In this document: positions 40,419 through 50,684 of the stretch, one piece after another | How positions within the stretch are numbered: the stretch's first letter is position 1 | Layout of the letters: each line of letters starts with the position of its first letter | NCBI RefSeq assembly: GCF_000499205.1 | Contig: NZ_AWUK01000013.1 | Coordinates: forward strand, 62,001 to 126,000 | Direction of reading: 5' to 3' | Length of the DNA: 64,000 bases | Source: Paenibacillus sp. MAEPY2 | Lineage (GTDB): Bacteria; Bacillota; Bacilli; Paenibacillales; Paenibacillaceae | Position numbers and translations under genes: made by a program | The notes under the pieces: model-generated | Seen by the model: the letters and a program-made list of their open reading frames with translations, nothing else | Database searches by the model: none | Told to the model about the DNA's origin: nothing

Positions 40419-41897
40419 TTATGGGGTTGTAGGCTGTGTCGGTGTAGGTGTCGGAGTGACCTCCACGCCTTCATCATCTACAGTATTTAAGTACAATCCA
40501 ATACCCGCTGGACGGTACTGAGTTCCCGGCTTACTTGTCAGTGGGGATACACCCTCAACCAAGAAGTAACGGAATACATCGAATTCATCTGGGCAGTGAT
40601 CCTTCTTCACACGCAGTTTGTTTGCGTTAAAGGACAGCGCCGATAATGCGATGGTGTCTTTCAGTGCTCCCCGCACCCCTTCTTCTGGATGAACCACGTA
40701 CAGCTTGGAAGTGTGAACCTTACCGCTGTATCGGGAAGGGTTAAAGGAATACTTGTAAAGAGGATTCTCAGCGTTGTTCCAAGCCCGCGGATAGTCTCGC
40801 TTGCCATCCTGCGAAGTACGCATTGGAGGGATGGCATTGGCTGGTGCGTTCCAAGACAGGTAGTACGCCTGATATCGAGCACCGAGTTTACCACGGCTGA
40901 CCATAACGTTGTCCAATCCGTTCGCAGGATTCTTAGGGTAGGTTTTCATCAGCGGCATGATGTTCGGTTGTCTCTTCGTCGTATCATCGAAGTCGTACTC
41001 AGCGATAGCAGTCAACCCCGCTGAACCTGTCTGTGTCACGATAGGTACACTACCTGCGAACATTGCGTAGGCATCATCACCTTCTTCAATGGCATCCAGC
41101 TTACCGAAGTAGAGAGGAATGATTGGAACAAGGTTTCCTTCCGGTGCAGGTACGTTGTCACATTGGATGATGAAAAACAGGCTATCTCCGTTCAAGTGAC
41201 CTTTAATAGAGATTTCTGAGTCAGCCCACCAGTTCGTATTTTGAATCGCATAGTTGATATCGTCGTCGTGGTATTTTTCCAAAAGGTTGGTGCGAAGACC
41301 AGCTTGCATGATTGGAGACTGCATCCGATTCCCTTCAGCTTTAGATACAGTGAAGGTAGCCGTCGAGCCTGTGCCTACCCAACCTGCCGCTTCTACTTCG
41401 ATATCCAGAGCCGCCCGTTTAAGGTCGCCCGAGTTAATCCAAGGCAGTGTTACGTCAGAGTAGTTAGGCATAAGTCCCGCCAAATTCTCGACCATATAGA
41501 AGTACAGAGTCTGAGGGGAACGATACTTACGGAACTCGTTTGTAGCCCATTCTGAGAACACCGCAAGTGTTGCAGGAGCCGGAGCTTTAGAATCAGGTGA
41601 CTTGTTTAGCTTCCGAAGTTGACCAAGGTTCTGATTCCATGTACCAAGAACAGCAACGCCAAACATCTTGCCCGCAGTGTTCTTGTAAATGAAGTGCTCC
41701 GCCACGTAGATTGGAATGTCGGCCGAATCAAGACCGGTGTACGTGCTTCGCATAATACCTGCATCAAAAACCACTTTCTTAAAATTAGCGACCGTATCCC
41801 ATCCTTGAGTAGCAAGTAGGTCTCCTAACCGAGGTTGAATATCCTGTTCCGTTACTTTCGGGGTAAACGATGCAGGAGTTGTGTCGATAAATGGCAT
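40419..41897 (-). CDS. Tail-tip/fibre protein, paralogue 2 of 3
   Basis: A 492-residue protein with the family layout: N-terminal 'LGDLLATQGWDTVANFKKVV', central 'AEHFIYKNTAGKMFGVAVLG' and 'LYFYMVENLAGLMPNYSDV', 'RYQAYYLSWNAPANAIPPMR', then 'NPSRYSGKVHTSKLYVVHPE' and 'FRYFLVEGVSPLTSKPGTQY'. The C terminus is a Pro/Thr-rich tail ('TPTPTPTQPTTP'). It shares its core with paralogues 1 and 3, so the three arose by duplication. Confidence 0.7.
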   Translation of the reverse strand: MPFIDTTPASFTPKVTEQDIQPRLGDLLATQGWDTVANFKKVVFDAGIMRSTYTGLDSADIPIYVAEHFIYKNTAGKMFGVAVLGTWNQNLGQLRKLNKSPDSKAPAPATLAVFSEWATNEFRKYRSPQTLYFYMVENLAGLMPNYSDVTLPWINSGDLKRAALDIEVEAAGWVGTGSTATFTVSKAEGNRMQSPIMQAGLRTNLLEKYHDDDINYAIQNTNWWADSEISIKGHLNGDSLFFIIQCDNVPAPEGNLVPIIPLYFGKLDAIEEGDDAYAMFAGSVPIVTQTGSAGLTAIAEYDFDDTTKRQPNIMPLMKTYPKNPANGLDNVMVSRGKLGARYQAYYLSWNAPANAIPPMRTSQDGKRDYPRAWNNAENPLYKYSFNPSRYSGKVHTSKLYVVHPEEGVRGALKDTIALSALSFNANKLRVKKDHCPDEFDVFRYFLVEGVSPLTSKPGTQYRPAGIGLYLNTVDDEGVEVTPTPTPTQPTTP

Positions 41898-41945: not shown

Positions 41946-44606
41946 TTACACAGGACAGTTTACCAGGTATTCCCACGACGAACTTGACCCCGAACTGGAG
42001 GACATGACCACCTTTATTTGTGTTACGCCGCCAACAGGACTGTATTGAAATTGGAGTGAACCTCCGTTAGATACTTCCATGTTGGTGCTGGCAAGCAACT
42101 GGTTCTGATAGTAAACATCCATACGGTCAGCTACCCCATACATGTTGTAGGTGATAACGACTCGTCCAGATGAATTGCCCATCTCATGCAGTTTCTCCGT
42201 ATAAGCACCGCCGCCAGAATCGTTCAGCTTACCGCACTGCAATGTATTAGCCGGTGGGGGTGGTGGAGGTGGTGGGGGCACGTACTTGGCAGTTACCGTT
42301 ATGGTTGCCGTAGCCGTTGCCTGCTGACCTATTTCATTCCACACCGTAAGCTTGACCGAATACGTGCCGACATTGCTGAACGTAAACGTTGCATTATCGA
42401 CTGTATACAAGCCCTTTTTCACGTCACTCGTCACTTCCCACCTGTAATTCGTAATAGGGGAGTGCTTACTGTACAGCGATGTGAACTTGATTGACGTGTC
42501 CTCTTCTATGCTTGAATAACCAGGGTCGATTGACAGAATCAGAGCTGGAGATTCAGGCGGTGCAGGAGGAATCTCAGGAAGAGTGTACCCCGCCTTTAGA
42601 ATGCCGAGAGCGGCAGGTCTGTATGGCGTTGCAGGCCTCTTTGTCAGTGGCGAAATTCCTTCGACCAAGTAGTAAGAGTAAACCTCATACCTATTCTCGT
42701 CGTCACAGTAATCTCTCACAGCCTTTAACTCGTCACCATTCATTATAGTTAAGGGAGAGGTTAAAATAACGTTTCGCAGTGTTCCGAACGTACCATCTTC
42801 AGGATGAACCAGAAGTGCACGGGATGAATGGGCTTTCCCGCTGTACCTTGACGGACTGAACTGGTACTTGTATTGCTCGTTCATGTAATCTTTCCAAGCC
42901 CTTGGGTGCTTACGGTTGTCAGCATTTTCCCTTAGCGGTGGCATAGAATTAGAAGGAACATTCCAAGACAGGTAATGCGCCTGATACCTTGCACCGAACT
43001 TATTTCGCTTGACCATAATGGAGTCAATACCGTTACTTGGGAAGTGCGGATACTCCTTCATAACAGGAAGCAAAACCTCTTGCTTGATGCTTGCATCGTC
43101 ATAATTAAATTTACCAGACTGCTTGAGAGCGTCTTCTACAGTAGCCCCGTCCTTGTTGTATGCCGTCCCTGAGAATAAGGCAGAAGGTGTGCCTTCAGCG
43201 TTTCGATTGGTCTCGATATGAATCTCAAGAAACATCCGACCGGATACCGGAGTGTAGCCACTCACTCCATCTCCACTCACTGCTTCAATGGTCACAGAGG
43301 ACATGCCCTCGATTCCCGTGATATCGAATTGCCCCATCAACTGAGCATCGTTCCTGTTACTTGTCGGCTCTACCGCCCCGATGGTATTGAACTTCCCTAT
43401 CTCCTGTCCTGCGATGGTCAGCGTGACAGCTTCGTCAGGCATGTCGCCGTCCGTGTCACCCATTAGCCATACTTTTACATATGACCCCGCATTAACCATT
43501 GGCTTGCCTGAGATAATTGTGGAAGTCTTCGTCTGCTTCCGGTAGAAGTCGAACGTGATATCCCGATTAATAACCTCTTCTGTCAAGCCGTTAACATCGA
43601 AGTCTCCCATGTAGAGAGGAATCGCAGGTACGGCGTTGTCATCCCAAACGGGAGCAGTGTCCGCAACTATAATCAGCATGAGCGACTTACCGTCCACGAA
43701 CCCTTTGACGAACACCTTACTGTCGTCCCACCAGTTCGTAAATTTTACGTCAACGAAGGCAATCTTCTCTGTGTGCTCAAGCTGAGGGATTCTTGTATGG
43801 GACGTGACTATTGGCGACTGGTACATCTGAGGGAAGGAATCAGTAATTCGTGACTGAAGAGCGTTTGTATTATCGTCCAGCCCCCACATGCTTGTCTGCA
43901 CTTCAACATCCAAAGCCACCCGTTTCAATTCATTGACGTTCTCCCACCCAACCAACATCTTCCCGTTTCCAATCCACTTCTCAAGCTGGTAGAAGTAAAG
44001 CGTATGCCGCTCAAAGAGGGCATCTTCGTTAGCCTTCTGAATCGCCCAAGAGAATACGCCGCTGTCCTGCGGTGTTAACTGAGTACCGTAATCGGCATTT
44101 TTGTCATAGATTGCGAATGGTACTTTACAGTCCGTCCGTCCAATCTGCTCATTAATGTGAGCCAGCATTGCCATGCCAAACAGGTTTCCCGATATATTTT
44201 TGACGACGATGTGCTTGGTCACATAGAAGTCGAAGGTGTCTGCTGACCCGACCGTGCTGTAGTAAATTGCTACCTGACCGGATACCCCTGCTTCAAAGGT
44301 AATCGTGATGGTTTCGTCAGTGTTCTTGACCGCTATGTAATAGGATGTTGGAGCAATCTCTCCATCAAGGAAGATGTAGTAATCATCGTTCAGTACCTTA
44401 GGCAAGTCTATTTCAGGGTTAGCCATCGGAAGGTAGAAACGCTTGATTGTTGGCTTGGTCAGCTTGTTGGAGTAGGTTACCTTAGTAAACTCAGCTACCT
44501 TTGACCAGCCGTTGGTTGTCATGATACCAGCAAGCCCTTCTAGCAAAAACTCTTCATTTATGGTCGTGTCGAGCCAAGGCGTTGGCTGGTATGACGTATC
44601 TGCCAT
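41946..44606 (-). CDS. Tail-tip/fibre protein, paralogue 3 of 3, with PKD-like domain
   Basis: An 886-residue protein with the family core ('LEGLAGIMTTNGWSKVAEFT', 'KHIVVKNISGNLFGMAMLAH', 'RYQAHYLSWNVPSNSMPPLR', 'SPSRYSGKAHSSRALLVHPE', 'YSYYLVEGISPLTKRPATPY'). After ~690 it adds a PKD-like Ig domain ('ALILSIDPGYSSIEEDTSIK', 'NVGTYSVKLTVWNEIGQQA'), a nine-proline stretch, and a ~80-residue beta-rich end. A perfect AGAAAGGAGGTG site precedes the ATG. The added domain suggests an extended surface-binding variant. Confidence 0.75.
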   Translation of the reverse strand: MADTSYQPTPWLDTTINEEFLLEGLAGIMTTNGWSKVAEFTKVTYSNKLTKPTIKRFYLPMANPEIDLPKVLNDDYYIFLDGEIAPTSYYIAVKNTDETITITFEAGVSGQVAIYYSTVGSADTFDFYVTKHIVVKNISGNLFGMAMLAHINEQIGRTDCKVPFAIYDKNADYGTQLTPQDSGVFSWAIQKANEDALFERHTLYFYQLEKWIGNGKMLVGWENVNELKRVALDVEVQTSMWGLDDNTNALQSRITDSFPQMYQSPIVTSHTRIPQLEHTEKIAFVDVKFTNWWDDSKVFVKGFVDGKSLMLIIVADTAPVWDDNAVPAIPLYMGDFDVNGLTEEVINRDITFDFYRKQTKTSTIISGKPMVNAGSYVKVWLMGDTDGDMPDEAVTLTIAGQEIGKFNTIGAVEPTSNRNDAQLMGQFDITGIEGMSSVTIEAVSGDGVSGYTPVSGRMFLEIHIETNRNAEGTPSALFSGTAYNKDGATVEDALKQSGKFNYDDASIKQEVLLPVMKEYPHFPSNGIDSIMVKRNKFGARYQAHYLSWNVPSNSMPPLRENADNRKHPRAWKDYMNEQYKYQFSPSRYSGKAHSSRALLVHPEDGTFGTLRNVILTSPLTIMNGDELKAVRDYCDDENRYEVYSYYLVEGISPLTKRPATPYRPAALGILKAGYTLPEIPPAPPESPALILSIDPGYSSIEEDTSIKFTSLYSKHSPITNYRWEVTSDVKKGLYTVDNATFTFSNVGTYSVKLTVWNEIGQQATATATITVTAKYVPPPPPPPPPANTLQCGKLNDSGGGAYTEKLHEMGNSSGRVVITYNMYGVADRMDVYYQNQLLASTNMEVSNGGSLQFQYSPVGGVTQIKVVMSSSSGSSSSWEYLVNCPV

Positions 44607-45513: not shown

Positions 45514-48500
45514 TTATCCTAATTCTGATAAAGACTGCCACGTCAACTCGAGGTAATTGACGATGCCATCGCTGTTACCGACGATTCTGTTCCCCTTAAC
45601 CAGGAAGTAATTGGCAGTGAACGTATTGGAATCGTATACGTAAACAGAGTCAAGCAGTTCGATTAACGGATTACCTTTGACGACTACGTTCTTCGTCCTT
45701 GCCTGACGTTTGTAATCAAAGAAAATCTTATTGGCTACGTCCTCCTTCAAGTCTCTCAAGGAGTTTCCATCGATCTCTTCAATCCAGTCCAACTGAGCGC
45801 CCGCCGTGCGGATATTACCCTTGGTTGCGATAATCAGAGACTTGTCGAAGAAGTGTTCCACGATACCCGCTGTACCGGAAATCATCAAGTGATTTCTGAC
45901 ACGCGAGTAATCCGTAGAAGAAGTAACTTCCAGTAGATTCTCTCCATCAATGAACTCCCACTTCATGCCCGCTACCATAGCCCAGTCTGGTGAATCGAGG
46001 AAGTCCATCTTCTCCATTCGAAACGTCCCATACCTGTCGCAGTAGGCACGGTAAGGAATATCTTGAATAAGGGACTGTACGGCATCTGAAGCGTTCGTAC
46101 CTATTGGGAAGGATACACTTGCCACGAACGGATTCTGCCAGCCGCCCACTTCCATAATATTCTCCTGAGTCACGGCCTCAAGTTCTCCGCTCTCCTTATT
46201 AAATTTCATGAAGGTGTTCTTCCCTTTGTTCACGTCGATGTAAACTGTGTCCTCAATCACGTAGTCAGGGTTGCTCATATCCTCCGAATGAAACTTCCAA
46301 GCGCTCATTCCTGCATGGACAACAATGTCTTCTACAATGCTTGATTTAATCCAGGAGAATGCCCCGCCATCTCCTGCATAAGCTTCTTCCGGCGGGTAAT
46401 GCATAGGCTTGTAGAAGATAAATTCCTCAAGCATGTCGTACCTGTCCACACAGATAAACGAGACGGTCTTCTCGTCAGAGTTCTCCGTAATTTCGCCTTT
46501 AATCATTCCAGTGAATACACGGACAACTTCTTCCCCGTATCCCGCATAAATCCTGATTGGAGTGTACTCGCTAATAACATGTCGCAGTTCTCCTTCTTCG
46601 TAATAGCTCAACGGAGACTTGTCCGTCTTAAATGAGTCAGGGAACTCTGGTCTACGCTCCCAAGATGGAGAATAAATACCCGAAGAGTTGTCCAGCGTTA
46701 GCCGTGCGGTGCTGATAGTCGTATCAAGGTGGGTGTTGATTTCCCAACTCATTACATCTTTCTCAATGGTGTACATGTCTTCATAAACGAAGTCCCCAAC
46801 TTCATACCACTTCTCGTCATACGTGTCACCGATGGCAGTAGCTAGTTGCTCGATGGCATAGTCGTTGGCAGCGTACTTCACACTGTCGAGATACATCGTT
46901 CCATCCGTCACTGCAAACAGAATTCTGCTTTGGTACGGATAGTCGAATGCCGCCCCACGGATTCCGGTGTTAACCCAGACATCATTTATCTTCACATATA
47001 CATCGATATCCGTTTGGTCATGGCAGACTACAGTGTACTCGATAAAATCAGAAGTCGTGTTTAGCTTATACGTGCCGCCACCAGATGTATAAATTTGGTC
47101 ATCCTTGATGTTCAGAAGAAACCCCTTCGTTCCATTACTAATAACTAACTTGCCGCTGGTACCGGCGGCTGTCTTCAGGCTAAAGTTAATCGTAAACGGA
47201 AACTTCTTGATTTTACCTAACCGCTCGATACCTGCTTCGCCTCCGCTGGTTGAGATTGCTTGATAATCTCCCTTGTCCTTCTGTACAACTGTGCTGTACG
47301 GTGTCCATTTGTTGGCACTGTTCATTTCATCTTCAAAGTCCCACATCGCCTTCGACTCAATGGTCTCTACATCGAACTCTTTCGCTCTGAGCCACAAGAT
47401 ACCGAACTTTCCTCTCGATGCTTTCGAGGAATTGGCGAAAGTGAATTTCACCACGTTATGTCCTTTGGGCATCGGGATGGAAGGTGGGTATGCCACTCCG
47501 TTTTTAGCGCTAACCCCGTTGATACGAACTACTTCGTAATCATTAACTGTGACAATAATTGTGTCATCCAGTTCAAGGTCAGAGAAGTATGCCCAGCCAA
47601 GGTTTCCTGCCTTAAACCAATCGTGCTCGAAAACCAGCGTTTTTGCCTGCCCTGCCCCGCCCGTTCCGTTAAATCCGAGAACGTTCATCGAAGTCTTGTC
47701 ATCAACAACGGTCATTTGCACTGCACCGTTTGTCTCTGTGTACTTCTTGACATCAAGCGTAGTCTTCTTGGTCGTAAAATCCTTAAAGTAGGTTTGTTTA
47801 GTGGTTGTCCTGTTGTATTGGTACGTGACGATTTCCTTATCGATGCTGGCATCTCCAGTCGAGTCTGCCGTTCTTGGTTTACCATCGCCCCAAGACTTGA
47901 CTCTTACAACAACGGGCTGCCTTCCAAACTTGAGGGCATTCGCCTTCGTATCATAAAGAATGTCAATTCGGTTGCCTTTGATATCCCCGCCCGTATCATC
48001 TGCAAGATACTCTCCCCAACTCGTTCCATTGACAATCAGTTCCACTTTGCTCTTCAAAGGGATGACAGAGGGATCTACCGCAATAATCTTCCAGCTCTTC
48101 CATGTACGAACGTCTGTACCGCCCCGTGTGATTCCAATACAGCCGGGGCAGTCTGCTACATATGCCGTTGCTTCCATGTTGTATTCCACGTAGGAGGTCG
48201 AGTCTGCCATTACCCCTGAAGCGTCCATTAGAACAGAAGCATCCTGAATGTTCCTTGGGTCAATTTTCTTGCTTGCTGTCTGAATAGTTTTCTTGCCCCG
48301 AAGGTACGGTTCAGGATTCTGTGCTACGTCGTTAAATCGTACTTCAAAGTGCAAGTGTGTTCCGTCACCGCCACCACTGGAGATGGAGTGTCCGGTATTA
48401 CCTCCAAGACCTACAAGACCACCTGCGTTAACCTTGTCCCCCACACTGACACTGATTTTGTTTAAGTGGGCATACCTTGTCTGCCATCCGTTTCCGTGAT

Positions 48501-49002
48501 TGACGTAGACGACTTTACCGTACCCTCTCAAGGTGCTGGCGATGGCTACTGTACCTGTCCACACAGCGTATACAGGGTCGTTCATCGCAAGGTCAAGGTC
48601 AATCCCTTTATGCTTCTTCCGGGAACAGCGAGGGTCTGTCTCGAACCAGTCGGTGATATACATCCCGTTGATGGTACGCTCCCCATTCTCCTTCCCATGC
48701 ATCGTTGAACTAGCTTTTATTGGCATTGAGAAGTCTGCGTTTCTCAGGTCGGTGCTGGTATCAACCAGCGTACCGTCAACGTAATTCGTAATCTTCTCCG
48801 CTTTGTCGATGGATAGCATATCATTCACTGCACTGTCTACCACGTACTGGACTGCATCGTATTTTCTACGGAAGCCCCGCACGTATGATGTTTTGTCCAA
48901 CTCTACGATTACCTTCGGCTCGTTCCCTAGCGCGTTTACACGCTCCATAATTCCTTGTAGCAATTGCCTTGAAGGGTAATTACCGTTAGATACATAAGCC
49001 AC
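45514..49002 (-). CDS. Tail lysin with M23 peptidase and 3D domains
   Basis: A 1162-residue tail protein with GTG start. Residues ~90-235 are an M23/LytM endopeptidase with zinc ligands H131, D135 ('KHKGIDLD') and H218 ('THLHFEV'), plus 'YAHLNKISVSVGDKVNAG'. Residues ~270-375 are a 3D domain ('MEATAYVADCPGCIGITRGG', 'IIAVDPSVIPLKSKVELIVN', 'LADDTGGDIKGNRIDI') with conserved aspartates, as in MltA/Rpf-like wall enzymes. Residues ~420-700 have beta-sandwich lectin-like segments. The end (~740-1160) resembles tail-hub/endopeptidase-type Gp37-like phage proteins. It likely cuts peptidoglycan at DNA injection. Confidence 0.9.
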   Translation of the reverse strand: MAYVSNGNYPSRQLLQGIMERVNALGNEPKVIVELDKTSYVRGFRRKYDAVQYVVDSAVNDMLSIDKAEKITNYVDGTLVDTSTDLRNADFSMPIKASSTMHGKENGERTINGMYITDWFETDPRCSRKKHKGIDLDLAMNDPVYAVWTGTVAIASTLRGYGKVVYVNHGNGWQTRYAHLNKISVSVGDKVNAGGLVGLGGNTGHSISSGGGDGTHLHFEVRFNDVAQNPEPYLRGKKTIQTASKKIDPRNIQDASVLMDASGVMADSTSYVEYNMEATAYVADCPGCIGITRGGTDVRTWKSWKIIAVDPSVIPLKSKVELIVNGTSWGEYLADDTGGDIKGNRIDILYDTKANALKFGRQPVVVRVKSWGDGKPRTADSTGDASIDKEIVTYQYNRTTTKQTYFKDFTTKKTTLDVKKYTETNGAVQMTVVDDKTSMNVLGFNGTGGAGQAKTLVFEHDWFKAGNLGWAYFSDLELDDTIIVTVNDYEVVRINGVSAKNGVAYPPSIPMPKGHNVVKFTFANSSKASRGKFGILWLRAKEFDVETIESKAMWDFEDEMNSANKWTPYSTVVQKDKGDYQAISTSGGEAGIERLGKIKKFPFTINFSLKTAAGTSGKLVISNGTKGFLLNIKDDQIYTSGGGTYKLNTTSDFIEYTVVCHDQTDIDVYVKINDVWVNTGIRGAAFDYPYQSRILFAVTDGTMYLDSVKYAANDYAIEQLATAIGDTYDEKWYEVGDFVYEDMYTIEKDVMSWEINTHLDTTISTARLTLDNSSGIYSPSWERRPEFPDSFKTDKSPLSYYEEGELRHVISEYTPIRIYAGYGEEVVRVFTGMIKGEITENSDEKTVSFICVDRYDMLEEFIFYKPMHYPPEEAYAGDGGAFSWIKSSIVEDIVVHAGMSAWKFHSEDMSNPDYVIEDTVYIDVNKGKNTFMKFNKESGELEAVTQENIMEVGGWQNPFVASVSFPIGTNASDAVQSLIQDIPYRAYCDRYGTFRMEKMDFLDSPDWAMVAGMKWEFIDGENLLEVTSSTDYSRVRNHLMISGTAGIVEHFFDKSLIIATKGNIRTAGAQLDWIEEIDGNSLRDLKEDVANKIFFDYKRQARTKNVVVKGNPLIELLDSVYVYDSNTFTANYFLVKGNRIVGNSDGIVNYLELTWQSLSELG

Positions 49003-49016
49003 TTAAGCCACCTACC

Positions 49017-50060
49017 TTATCTATATTTCTCCGTAATCCACTCGATAAATCTATTGAGGAAGGTTACCGCTTCCGCTCTTGTAATACATGCTTCCGGTTC
49101 AAACTTGCCATCTTCATAAAGTGGGAACACATAACACCCGTCATGGAATTTTTCATCTAACAGGGTCAGTACATCGTTCGAGTACCATTTGGAAAGGATA
49201 ACATCCTTATCCACAATCGGTCTCAGCGGCGTATCATTGTATGTGAACGCACGGTCGGTGTACCGATTATGCAGGTTCTCGTAAATACGGCTCATTAGTG
49301 CGAAGAAGTCTCCGCGACGAATACGAACGTCTCCGAAAAATCGGTCGTTGTATGTCACCCGCCCTGATTCCACGACGACCGTTTCACTTGTACGTCTATT
49401 CACCCCATTAATTACGGCGTTATACCCTATGACAGCAGGGAAGCCATTGTACATGTATGGTAGGTAAACTTCACCTTTATGAATTACAAACACGTCACGC
49501 TGAAATCCGATAGCGTTCCGGATGACCACGCCTGCATCACTTCCTGCGCCAACAGTAACGAAAAGTCTCTTCAGCTTAACCCCAAGGACTGTACAAGACT
49601 CCGGTTGGTTGCTGTAGCTGAAGTAGTATGTAGAAGCGTACTTCAGGGTTGCGTGTGGCATCCGGTAGTCGCCTACTCCATTGTATGGGGTATTGACACA
49701 CCCGATATCTTTCCGGTCAGGGATGCCATAAGCAATGACCACGACTTCGATACCCGCCGACAGTGGGTTGGTCATTGTGACTTTTCCGTTCTCTACCTTC
49801 TCAGGAAGAACCTCTACCCCGTTCACGATAACGAACACCGGATTACTCATGTGGTATTTGTAATCAGGTACAAGAAACTCTTGCTGTCCGCTTACGGTCA
49901 CGAAGCGCTTAACCATTCTCTCGTACCCTTCTTTGAACACGTTGTACGTCATGCCGCTTAAGACTTCTACGTCACCTGTCAAATCCGTTCTCATACGAGT
50001 AATCTCAAGTGTGTCACGGTAATACCAATCCAGCGGATCTACGTCAATCCATCTTTTCAT
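49017..50060 (-). CDS. Tail protein with SLH-like C-terminal module(s)
   Basis: A 347-residue protein. Residues ~1-240 are a beta-rich tail segment ('KRFVTVSGQQEFLVPDYKYH', 'PVFVIVNGVEVLPEKVENG'). Residues ~285-340 end in 'DGKFEPEACITRAEAVTFLN', which matches the core of the SLH (S-layer homology) domain with its TRAE motif; an earlier 'RIRRGDFFALMSRIYENL' looks like a degenerate second copy. SLH domains bind pyruvylated secondary cell-wall polymer in Paenibacillus and Bacillus. It lies between the lysin and another SLH-bearing tail gene. Confidence 0.75.
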   Translation of the reverse strand: MKRWIDVDPLDWYYRDTLEITRMRTDLTGDVEVLSGMTYNVFKEGYERMVKRFVTVSGQQEFLVPDYKYHMSNPVFVIVNGVEVLPEKVENGKVTMTNPLSAGIEVVVIAYGIPDRKDIGCVNTPYNGVGDYRMPHATLKYASTYYFSYSNQPESCTVLGVKLKRLFVTVGAGSDAGVVIRNAIGFQRDVFVIHKGEVYLPYMYNGFPAVIGYNAVINGVNRRTSETVVVESGRVTYNDRFFGDVRIRRGDFFALMSRIYENLHNRYTDRAFTYNDTPLRPIVDKDVILSKWYSNDVLTLLDEKFHDGCYVFPLYEDGKFEPEACITRAEAVTFLNRFIEWITEKYR

Positions 50061-50063
50061 TTC

Positions 50064-50684
50064 TTAGTACCCCCTCAGCAACTTGTCTACGTGTCGGTAC
50101 GTCCGCATAAGGAACGTAATGGATTCTGCTCTTGTAGCCGCTTCGTCCGGACGGAAGTAAACAACAGACTCCCCGTCTGCTTCCCAGTTCGTTGCGATAA
50201 GTCCAAGCTGTTGCATATTGTCGATATACTTGTTTGCCCAATGATCTTCGATATCAATGAACTCTGTCATGTACTTGTATTCAAAATCTTGCTTGCGGAC
50301 AAGAGACATGCCGATGGTTACGATGTACTTCGTTTCCATCTCAGCGGTCTTAATATCGGGTTCTCCGGTCACGATGCCGATGTAAACTGTACCCTTCTCG
50401 TCGTAATACTTATGTTGAGAGCCGATGAACTGAAGCCAGTCGGCATATTCCTTCTTAGAATAAAACAGCATGGTTAGGGTAGCGTTATAATGAGACGTTC
50501 CGTTCTGCACAAGTCCCGCAGAAGATGCCAAGGTCTGGTTGACATGGGTCTTCAGGTAAGGCGCCGGCGGTTTGTACTCCGTAATCAGCTTTGCTTTGAC
50601 CTGATTAAACTGGACTCCGTTGTCGTAAAACAGTTTCTTCTTATATACCGAATCCTCTGACAAGAGGTTATTTTGTTGTGTCAT
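50064..50684 (-). CDS. Distal-tail-type protein with C-terminal SLH domain
   Basis: A 206-residue protein with the strong site GGAGGTACGACC before the ATG. Residues ~1-140 look like a distal tail or neck-type protein encoded right after the tape measure. Residues ~142-200 form an SLH domain: 'DIEDHWANKYIDNMQQLGLI', then 'YFRPDEAATRAESITFLMR', with the TRAE motif and the W of the SLH start. The fusion suggests a tail-tip contact with the S-layer-anchoring polymer. The tail role is inferred from position. Confidence 0.8.
   Translation of the reverse strand: MTQQNNLLSEDSVYKKKLFYDNGVQFNQVKAKLITEYKPPAPYLKTHVNQTLASSAGLVQNGTSHYNATLTMLFYSKKEYADWLQFIGSQHKYYDEKGTVYIGIVTGEPDIKTAEMETKYIVTIGMSLVRKQDFEYKYMTEFIDIEDHWANKYIDNMQQLGLIATNWEADGESVVYFRPDEAATRAESITFLMRTYRHVDKLLRGY

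Follow-up and report, generated by a model that had tools for sequence, protein, structure and literature searches.

Two neighbouring phage tail-tip proteins carry divergent SLH modules that may together form one split triad, both clamp and cell-wall dock

We describe two adjacent tail-tip proteins of a Paenibacillus-type prophage, P1 and P2, encoded in a 64,000-nucleotide window of the Paenibacillus sp. MAEPY2 genome (the whole stretch of DNA analysed here), whose C termini are divergent SLH modules. The SLH triad is the three-part module that hangs the bacterial S-layer on the cell wall. We consider it moderately probable that a Dit-like P1 and its partner P2 are clamped together by a split SLH triad, which would also dock on pyruvylated wall polymer. 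The computation backs the assignment of the modules to SLH (least so for the first half of the module that we call b), the adjacency of the two genes, the conservation of groove residues and the compatibility of the joined chain with a triad.

The open reading frames of P1 (50064–50684, 206 aa) and P2 (49017–50060, 347 aa) are both present on the minus strand, and the tail-tip position assigned to them in the preliminary description is correct. They lie between a tape-measure protein upstream of P1 (50743–55950, minus strand; phrog_32382) and, downstream of P2, a tail hub/lysin (45514–49002, minus strand) with an M23 peptidase (PF01551, E 5.5e-27) and a 3D domain (PF06725, E 2.1e-11), giving the gene order tape measure, P1, P2, hub/lysin. 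P1 combines a Dit- or tail-tube-like N-terminal domain with a C-terminal SLH module, a; P2 appears to consist of an SLH module, b, that a tail domain splits in two, followed by a C-terminal module, c. P2 accompanies P1 in 103 of the 104 loci that hold P1, a redundant set fetched mostly by P1, and the single locus without it is a cut contig. Where both genes occur, the gap between them measures −5 to 60 nt in 99 of 103 loci.

Some members of this neighbourhood depart from the common pattern. In Anaerovirgula multivorans (L070/L110), 886 nt with a 110-aa open reading frame separate P1 and P2, unlike in the 99 near-abutting loci. The hub/lysin counterpart of Bacillus phage EZ-2018a (L002, 6510–9977) seems, from its translation judged by eye, to carry a different extra domain before its M23-like part. 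Within the window itself, an 886-aa virion structural protein at 41946–44606 matches phrog_9258 and carries a PKD domain towards its C-terminal end (PF00801, E 9.2e-7); the gene after it, at 40419–41897, also matches phrog_9258 and has no Pfam match.

The TRAE motifs that the preliminary description quoted for P1 and P2 are both there, and the SLH character that it gave to the two C termini is borne out by profile-profile matches and by relatives that exceed the Pfam cut-off. Module a spans P1 residues 141–189 (50118–50264, minus strand) and module c P2 residues 281–335 (49056–49220, minus strand). A Pfam search returned PF00395 for both window proteins, though each falls just below the gathering score of 20.8 bits: P1 reaches 19.6 bits (E 9e-4, residues 144–187) and P2 16.3 bits (E 9.5e-3, residues 312–331). 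All five P1 relatives for which scores are given, picked for high scores, pass the cut-off (24.3, 25.0, 26.6, 28.2 and 49.9 bits), as do three of the five P2 relatives given (21.3, 22.9 and 23.1 bits), the other two having 10.2 bits and no match. At E ≤ 0.01, 21 of 24 members of the P1 family match PF00395, the sole family listed at that threshold. Against a profile built from 24 SLH stretches of the host's own proteins, drawn from eight host loci of which some belong to the same protein, hhalign gave P = 4e-12 for P1 141–189 and P = 2.5e-8 for P2 281–332. The PHROG profile of P1, phrog_32188, matches many SLH-bearing host open reading frames, mostly at model positions near 140–197. When the P1-family profile was compared with the PDB, the SLH chains of Sap, 6bt4 and 3pyw, came first with whole-sequence E values of 1.1e-4 and 1.8e-4; no single stretch passes alone. 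Single-sequence searches of 1566 open reading frames matched P1 and P2 to host SLH proteins (best E 2.8e-8 and 5.9e-5, respectively). Single-sequence PDB searches with P1 and with P2 gave nothing useful, and an NCBIfam search gave nothing meaningful for P1 and nothing for P2.

Trp13 and the Arg43 of TRAE, which are conserved in SLH modules, are largely retained across the family. We compared 65 distinct pairs, drawn from the 100 of 104 P1 loci in which both proteins fall within length limits; the four loci left out (L024, L075, L105 and L112) are cut, broken or short. Position 13 is Trp in all 65 pairs in module a and in 64 in module b, and in module c it is Trp in 52, Phe in 11, Tyr in one and Gly in one, with Trp at the next position in 10 of the 11 Phe rows. 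Position 43 is Arg in all pairs in module a, Arg in 62 and Lys in three in module b, and Arg in 61 and Lys in four in module c. In the window these positions are W149 and R185 of P1 for module a and W292 and R328 of P2, within ITRAE, for module c.

A further SLH module, missed in the preliminary description, seems to be present in P2 at residues 3–46 and about 236–266. The protein seems to start with the first half of an SLH domain (49923–50054, minus strand; Trp13 = W12, Gly29 = G36) and to resume with the TRAE half and its core helix some 190 residues later (49263–49355, minus strand; Arg43 = R249, within IRRGD). Read in this way, P2 would begin with module b, its two helices held apart by an insertion of about 190 residues, and continue with module c. 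The insert, residues 47–235 (49356–49922, minus strand), is predicted to contain strands and to form one or more beta-rich tail domains. The TRAE half gave P 6.5e-4 within P2 (241–252) and, taken alone, a score of 23.9 with P 6.3e-6; for the first half the corresponding hhalign values were P 0.12 (3–47) and a score of 13.5 with P 0.013. Leaving out the insert, so that columns 1–46 join 236–262, raised the score to 27.7 (P 1.2e-5); adding the first half to the TRAE half in this way did not improve the P-value over the 6.3e-6 of the TRAE half alone. In comparison, 200 random control splices, all drawn from the insert region itself (P2 residues 47–235), scored at most 11.2, below the 13.5 of the first half alone. 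Some relatives read ITRAE at this middle stretch, and in the joined model described below the TRAE half forms the helix 457–475. The first half is the piece for which the case is modest: it showed weak matches in single members, among the matches listed, and leans on the joined model and on a pattern kept in most relatives, an N-terminal W-x-D-V followed by D-W, with a Gly in the place of Gly29. Counting one module from P1 and two from P2, the pair would have the three modules that an SLH spindle comprises.

The fold predicted for the two proteins joined into one chain is compatible with such a spindle. P1 and P2 were linked by two residues, a join that itself favours contact between them, and modelled from an alignment of 52 rows checked row by row; the model has a mean pLDDT of 77.8 and a pTM of 0.61, with confidence below 50 pLDDT at 132–143, 165–175 and the junction, 205–219. 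The top five VIA-align rows are all SLH triads (3pyw, Z 15.8; 6bt4, 15.4; 6cwr, 13.7; 7sv6, 13.6; 6cwf, 13.2), and the best unrelated row has Z 9.0. The match to 3pyw, the Sap triad of B. anthracis, covers 170 of 178 residues at an rmsd of 3.8 over model range 140–552, and so extends from the module of P1 to the last helix of P2, as judged by range and length, since VIA-align gives ranges and not residue pairs. Plain Foldseek of the model against the PDB gave no match at E ≤ 0.001 and no SLH chain among the best 50 listed, and against the PDB and a viral library it gave low-coverage, multi-domain matches only. An earlier joined-chain prediction with a faulty alignment, in which P2-only rows were aligned to P1, left P2 unfolded and showed no triad, with no SLH chain among the best 50 VIA-align rows listed. 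In the prediction from the checked alignment, the joined chain adopts the three-module spindle fold of an SLH triad. Spacing gives a mixed picture: if P1 and P2 abut, 25 residues lie between the TRAE Arg of module a and the first position of module b, within the 21–30 of host tandem pairs (n = 16, from eight host loci, some in the same protein), and the 33 residues from b to c in P2 lie outside that range. On the strength of the profile comparisons and the model, P1, with one module, and P2, with two, most likely form a single hetero-triad and not two separate modules or a homotrimer.

If the triad assembles in this manner, a published rule predicts which of its grooves could hold a ligand. 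In SpaA the ligand occupies groove G2, to which SLH1 contributes Arg43, SLH2 Gly29 and SLH3 Trp13, and the authors extend this to grooves made of Gly29 of module n, Trp13 of module n+1 and Arg43 of module n+2 (PMC6081394). The same text reports that replacing the Gly29 of G2 by Ala shifts the KD from 29 to 226 nM, with the ligand then in another groove; that a double Gly mutant shows no binding by ITC; and that TRAE is also required for folding (PMC6081394). We equated a, b and c with SLH1–3 by chain order, which is an assumption. By this rule groove b of the window is complete, with G36 and W292 from P2 and R185 from P1, and the other two grooves are dead, position 29 of module a being T165 and module c also lacking Gly29. 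The surviving groove would correspond to the primary groove G2 of SpaA, with residues contributed by both proteins. Across the 65 pairs, position 29 of module b is Gly in 56, Ser in five and Pro in four, and position 13 of module c is aromatic in 64. The Gly of the GIIxG motif is absent from module a in every pair (0/65) and, called by a simple pattern, occurs in module c in 30 of 65, all in a distant clade, where it predicts a further groove, and none in the clade of the window. In four phage contigs (L022, L023, L071 and L072) Ser takes the place of Gly29 in module b, and no groove is predicted. In P. terrae PIC167 (L042/L084), Trp13 is replaced by Arg in module b and by Gly in module c, close relatives keeping both Trp residues; perhaps this is a decaying prophage, or the ligand has changed.

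The reading that best fits this pattern is docking on pyruvylated secondary cell-wall polymer (SCWP), as one set of groove residues is kept and the host has csaB. The window's own genome (7.47 Mb) has a csaB match of 273 bits against a curated cut-off of 213, and 88 matches to PF00395. csaB exceeds the cut-off in 33 of 37 host genomes of one set and in all 32 of a second, overlapping set; the count of PF00395 matches covered the genome of the window and 10 of those 37. Matching pair rows to tested host genomes by hand, from identical scores and lengths, assigned 39 of the 65 to a csaB-positive host and four to a host without csaB over the cut-off; 22 have no tested host genome. A G2-type groove is kept in 37 of the 39 csaB-positive rows and at least one predicted groove in 38, the two exceptions being the Anaerovirgula row L070, which has groove c only, and the P. 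terrae row L042, which has none, as its Trp is replaced in both b and c. No groove is predicted for the rows from two cultured Bacillus hosts, B. pumilus and B. tequilensis, in which no csaB exceeds the cut-off and whose genomes have one and no SLH matches, respectively; in these phages Gly29 of b is Pro, Arg43 of c is Lys and Glu45 of a is Gln. The B. chungangensis phage sits among these Bacillus phages on a tree built without the site columns (fork support inside the Bacillus clade, 80), yet has the Gly, Arg and Glu, and its host has csaB at 318 bits and 25 SLH matches. On the whole tree Gly29 of b changes four times. Two other rows without full csaB, a 3.1-Mb MAG and a Paenibacillus with csaB only in pieces, keep both predicted grooves, among them groove b.

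The link between groove and csaB is suggestive, a pointer and not a proof of the ligand, because csaB is common in the phylum (283 of 396 sampled genomes) and the csaB-negative Bacillus rows form one small clade; we dropped it as proof for this reason. A search around B. tequilensis found the family in two of 80 genomes, both already in the set, and an even sample of the phylum found it in three of 398 (the genome of the window, a second from its genus and a further, csaB-bearing one); neither added a csaB-negative host. In two hosts no csaB exceeds the cut-off, and their phages retain the triad minus its key Gly, so the triad probably also serves a purpose that does not depend on SCWP. The B. 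tequilensis member, L089, is a separate contig of 123902 b (NZ_AYTO01000029.1), about the size of a phage genome, so that the phage may be free or plasmid-like instead of integrated.

A Dit protein forms a hexameric ring under the tail tube. Residues 4–132 of P1 (50289–50675, minus strand) resemble by VIA-align a tail-tube or distal-tail domain, with the Pa193 baseplate protein 9b45_V at Z 9.0, the Dit of p2 (2wzp_P) at Z 8.2 and that of SPP1 (2x8k) at Z 7.3; residues 48–111 of P2 are similar to a small beta domain found in phage adaptor and tailspike proteins (7rfv, Z 8.0, rmsd 1.6). Z values in this range are only suggestive for either protein. Gene order, with P1 encoded right after the tape measure, also suggests that P1 may be a Dit.

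In the mechanism that we propose, P1 would be the distal-tail protein and P2 the next protein of the tail tip. Modules a, b and c would assemble into one complete three-pronged SLH spindle per P1–P2 pair, which would clamp P2 onto P1 and at the same time form one SCWP-binding groove from R185 of P1 (Arg43), G36 of module b in P2 (Gly29) and W292 of module c in P2 (Trp13). During adsorption this groove would dock the tail tip on the pyruvylated end of the host SCWP, and the neighbouring M23/3D lysin would then open the wall. A clamp role could account for the retention of Trp13 and of the TRAE Arg or Lys wherever Gly29 has disappeared, and a docking role for the conservation of Gly29 of b elsewhere. 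We infer that the two proteins associate in the virion, that a, b and c are the equivalents of SLH1–3, and that the assembly binds ligand and serves adsorption. The preliminary description had envisaged SLH modules on two proteins docking on the S-layer anchor polymer; the SLH identity and the tail-tip place stand, but the profile matches and the joined model point to one hetero-triad as the unit in place of two separate modules. More tentatively, and with rather less confidence than doubt, we suggest that this phage family has split an S-layer anchoring triad so that the pocket exists only once P1 and P2 have assembled, and that in hosts lacking CsaB the pocket decays and the clamp stays.

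The alternative to be taken most seriously, unlikely as we judge it, is that the split triad is a structural clamp only, fastening P2 to P1 without binding wall polymer, with some other protein as the adhesin. Two of the three window grooves lack Gly29, module a lacks it in all 65 pairs, and phages whose hosts have no csaB above the cut-off still carry the triad. Moreover, the available text on SpaA gives TRAE a folding role (PMC6081394), so that conservation of the Arg alone is no proof of binding. Against a mere clamp, Gly29 of b, whose known role is in ligand binding, is kept in 56 of 65 pairs alongside an aromatic residue at position 13 of c (64/65) and R43 of a (65/65), and in the B. pumilus and B. 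tequilensis phages it is lost together with R43 of c and E45 of a. That the ligand of the triad is not pyruvylated SCWP but some other glycan of the wall or surface is, in our view, distinctly improbable. The SLH module of the endolysin LysBT1 bound cells of varied bacteria, for which its authors propose other glycan ligands (PMC12285257); in the module c loop and in the lack of the other grooves the triad departs from Sap and SpaA; and the groove is kept in the MAG row without detected csaB. However, the complete groove consists of the same three residues as the primary site of SpaA, and csaB exceeds the cut-off in 33 of 37 and 32 of 32 genomes of the overlapping host sets, though it is common anyway.

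The remaining explanations concern the assembly and the homology themselves. A homotrimer built through the SLH module of P1, of the kind reported for LysBT1 and SlpA, with the modules of P2 pairing separately, draws on the capacity of single SLH modules to trimerise (PMC12285257). A trimer of P1 would have grooves without any Gly29, as no P1 among the 65 pairs possesses it, and we rejected the homotrimer as the main reading on this ground; it would also leave P2 with two modules of a three-part fold, whereas the joined model of P1 and P2 fits a full triad. We thus regard it as very improbable. Almost negligible is the prospect that the TRAE similarity reflects chance or convergence instead of SLH homology. 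The window Pfam scores below threshold are in its favour, and it is contradicted, already for modules a and c, by the hhalign matches, the PF00395 matches of relatives, the phrog_32188 matches, the ranking of Sap in the PDB and the triad fold match; chance similarity was dropped accordingly.

Should the split, dual-role triad prove correct, receptor docking and tail-tip assembly would be one event, and the case would be a clear one of a cell-wall-binding module serving as both virion glue and adhesin. Under this proposal the receptor of phages in Paenibacillus and Brevibacillus would be the polymer that anchors the S-layer, and csaB dependence in a phage that binds no S-layer protein would have a structural account. 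The proposal also predicts that binding should be abolished by loss of three named residues, distributed over two proteins, and two families of 'unknown function', phrog_32188 and phrog_29574, would gain a concrete mechanism.

Phage records with a match are those of the Brevibacillus phages Jenst (two records) and SecTim467 and of Bacillus phage EZ-2018a. Jenst gp155 and gp154 are direct relatives of P1 and P2 (81% and 58% identity, respectively), gp154 being annotated as 'hypothetical protein'. The available text of the Jenst paper describes a siphovirus, and the word S-layer is absent from that main text (PMC4909266). GenBank labels the P1 relative of Jenst and SecTim467 (KT151955.1, KT151957.1, 28432–29049) 'putative glycoside hydrolase family 18'; our Pfam searches with P1 and with relatives list no glycoside hydrolase family 18. 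The RefSeq name of the Jenst copy is SLH, so naming an SLH domain in P1 is not new; the remaining findings are new as far as our literature search reached. SLH modules in phage tail-tip proteins were not found in the open-access literature, most subscription journals lying outside the search. An SLH-bearing phage endolysin is already known, and the split tail-tip form was not found in the open-access literature searched.

Compared with known systems, the proposed P1–P2 triad resembles those of B. anthracis Sap and P. alvei SpaA (PF00395) in its three modules, its TRAE core helices, its groove of Trp13, Gly29 and Arg43 and its predicted fold. It differs in that two tail proteins share it, that a tail domain interrupts one of its modules and that one groove is complete in the clade of the window. 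LysBT1, from a Brevibacillus context, likewise uses a phage-encoded SLH module for cell-surface binding; unlike P1–P2 it has, in the accessible text, a single module reported to trimerise, and is an endolysin and not a tail-tip pair (PMC12285257). For AP50c, for Thrax1-2 and for the RBP of lambda-Ba03, adsorption, infection or RBP binding depends on csaB according to the portions of the reports available, which mention no SLH module in the phage proteins; the receptor of AP50c, unlike the one proposed for P1–P2, is the SLH-anchored protein Sap (PMC3545897, PMC9703825, PMC10644760). By analogy, P1–P2 may be likened to evolved Dit proteins with carbohydrate-binding modules, as far as the sources available describe them, since Dit-like P1 adjoins the tape measure and carries a module predicted to bind wall sugar. 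Unlike in those proteins, the module of P1 is part of an SLH unit completed by a second protein, P2, and the Dit identity of P1 rests on gene order and fold matches of Z 7–9. By this analogy, the P1–P2 triad would work like an evolved Dit with a sugar-binding module, built from S-layer anchor parts. The best-supported reading is a module of dual use, the modelled triad gluing P2 to Dit-like P1 and the intact groove docking the tail tip on pyruvylated SCWP.
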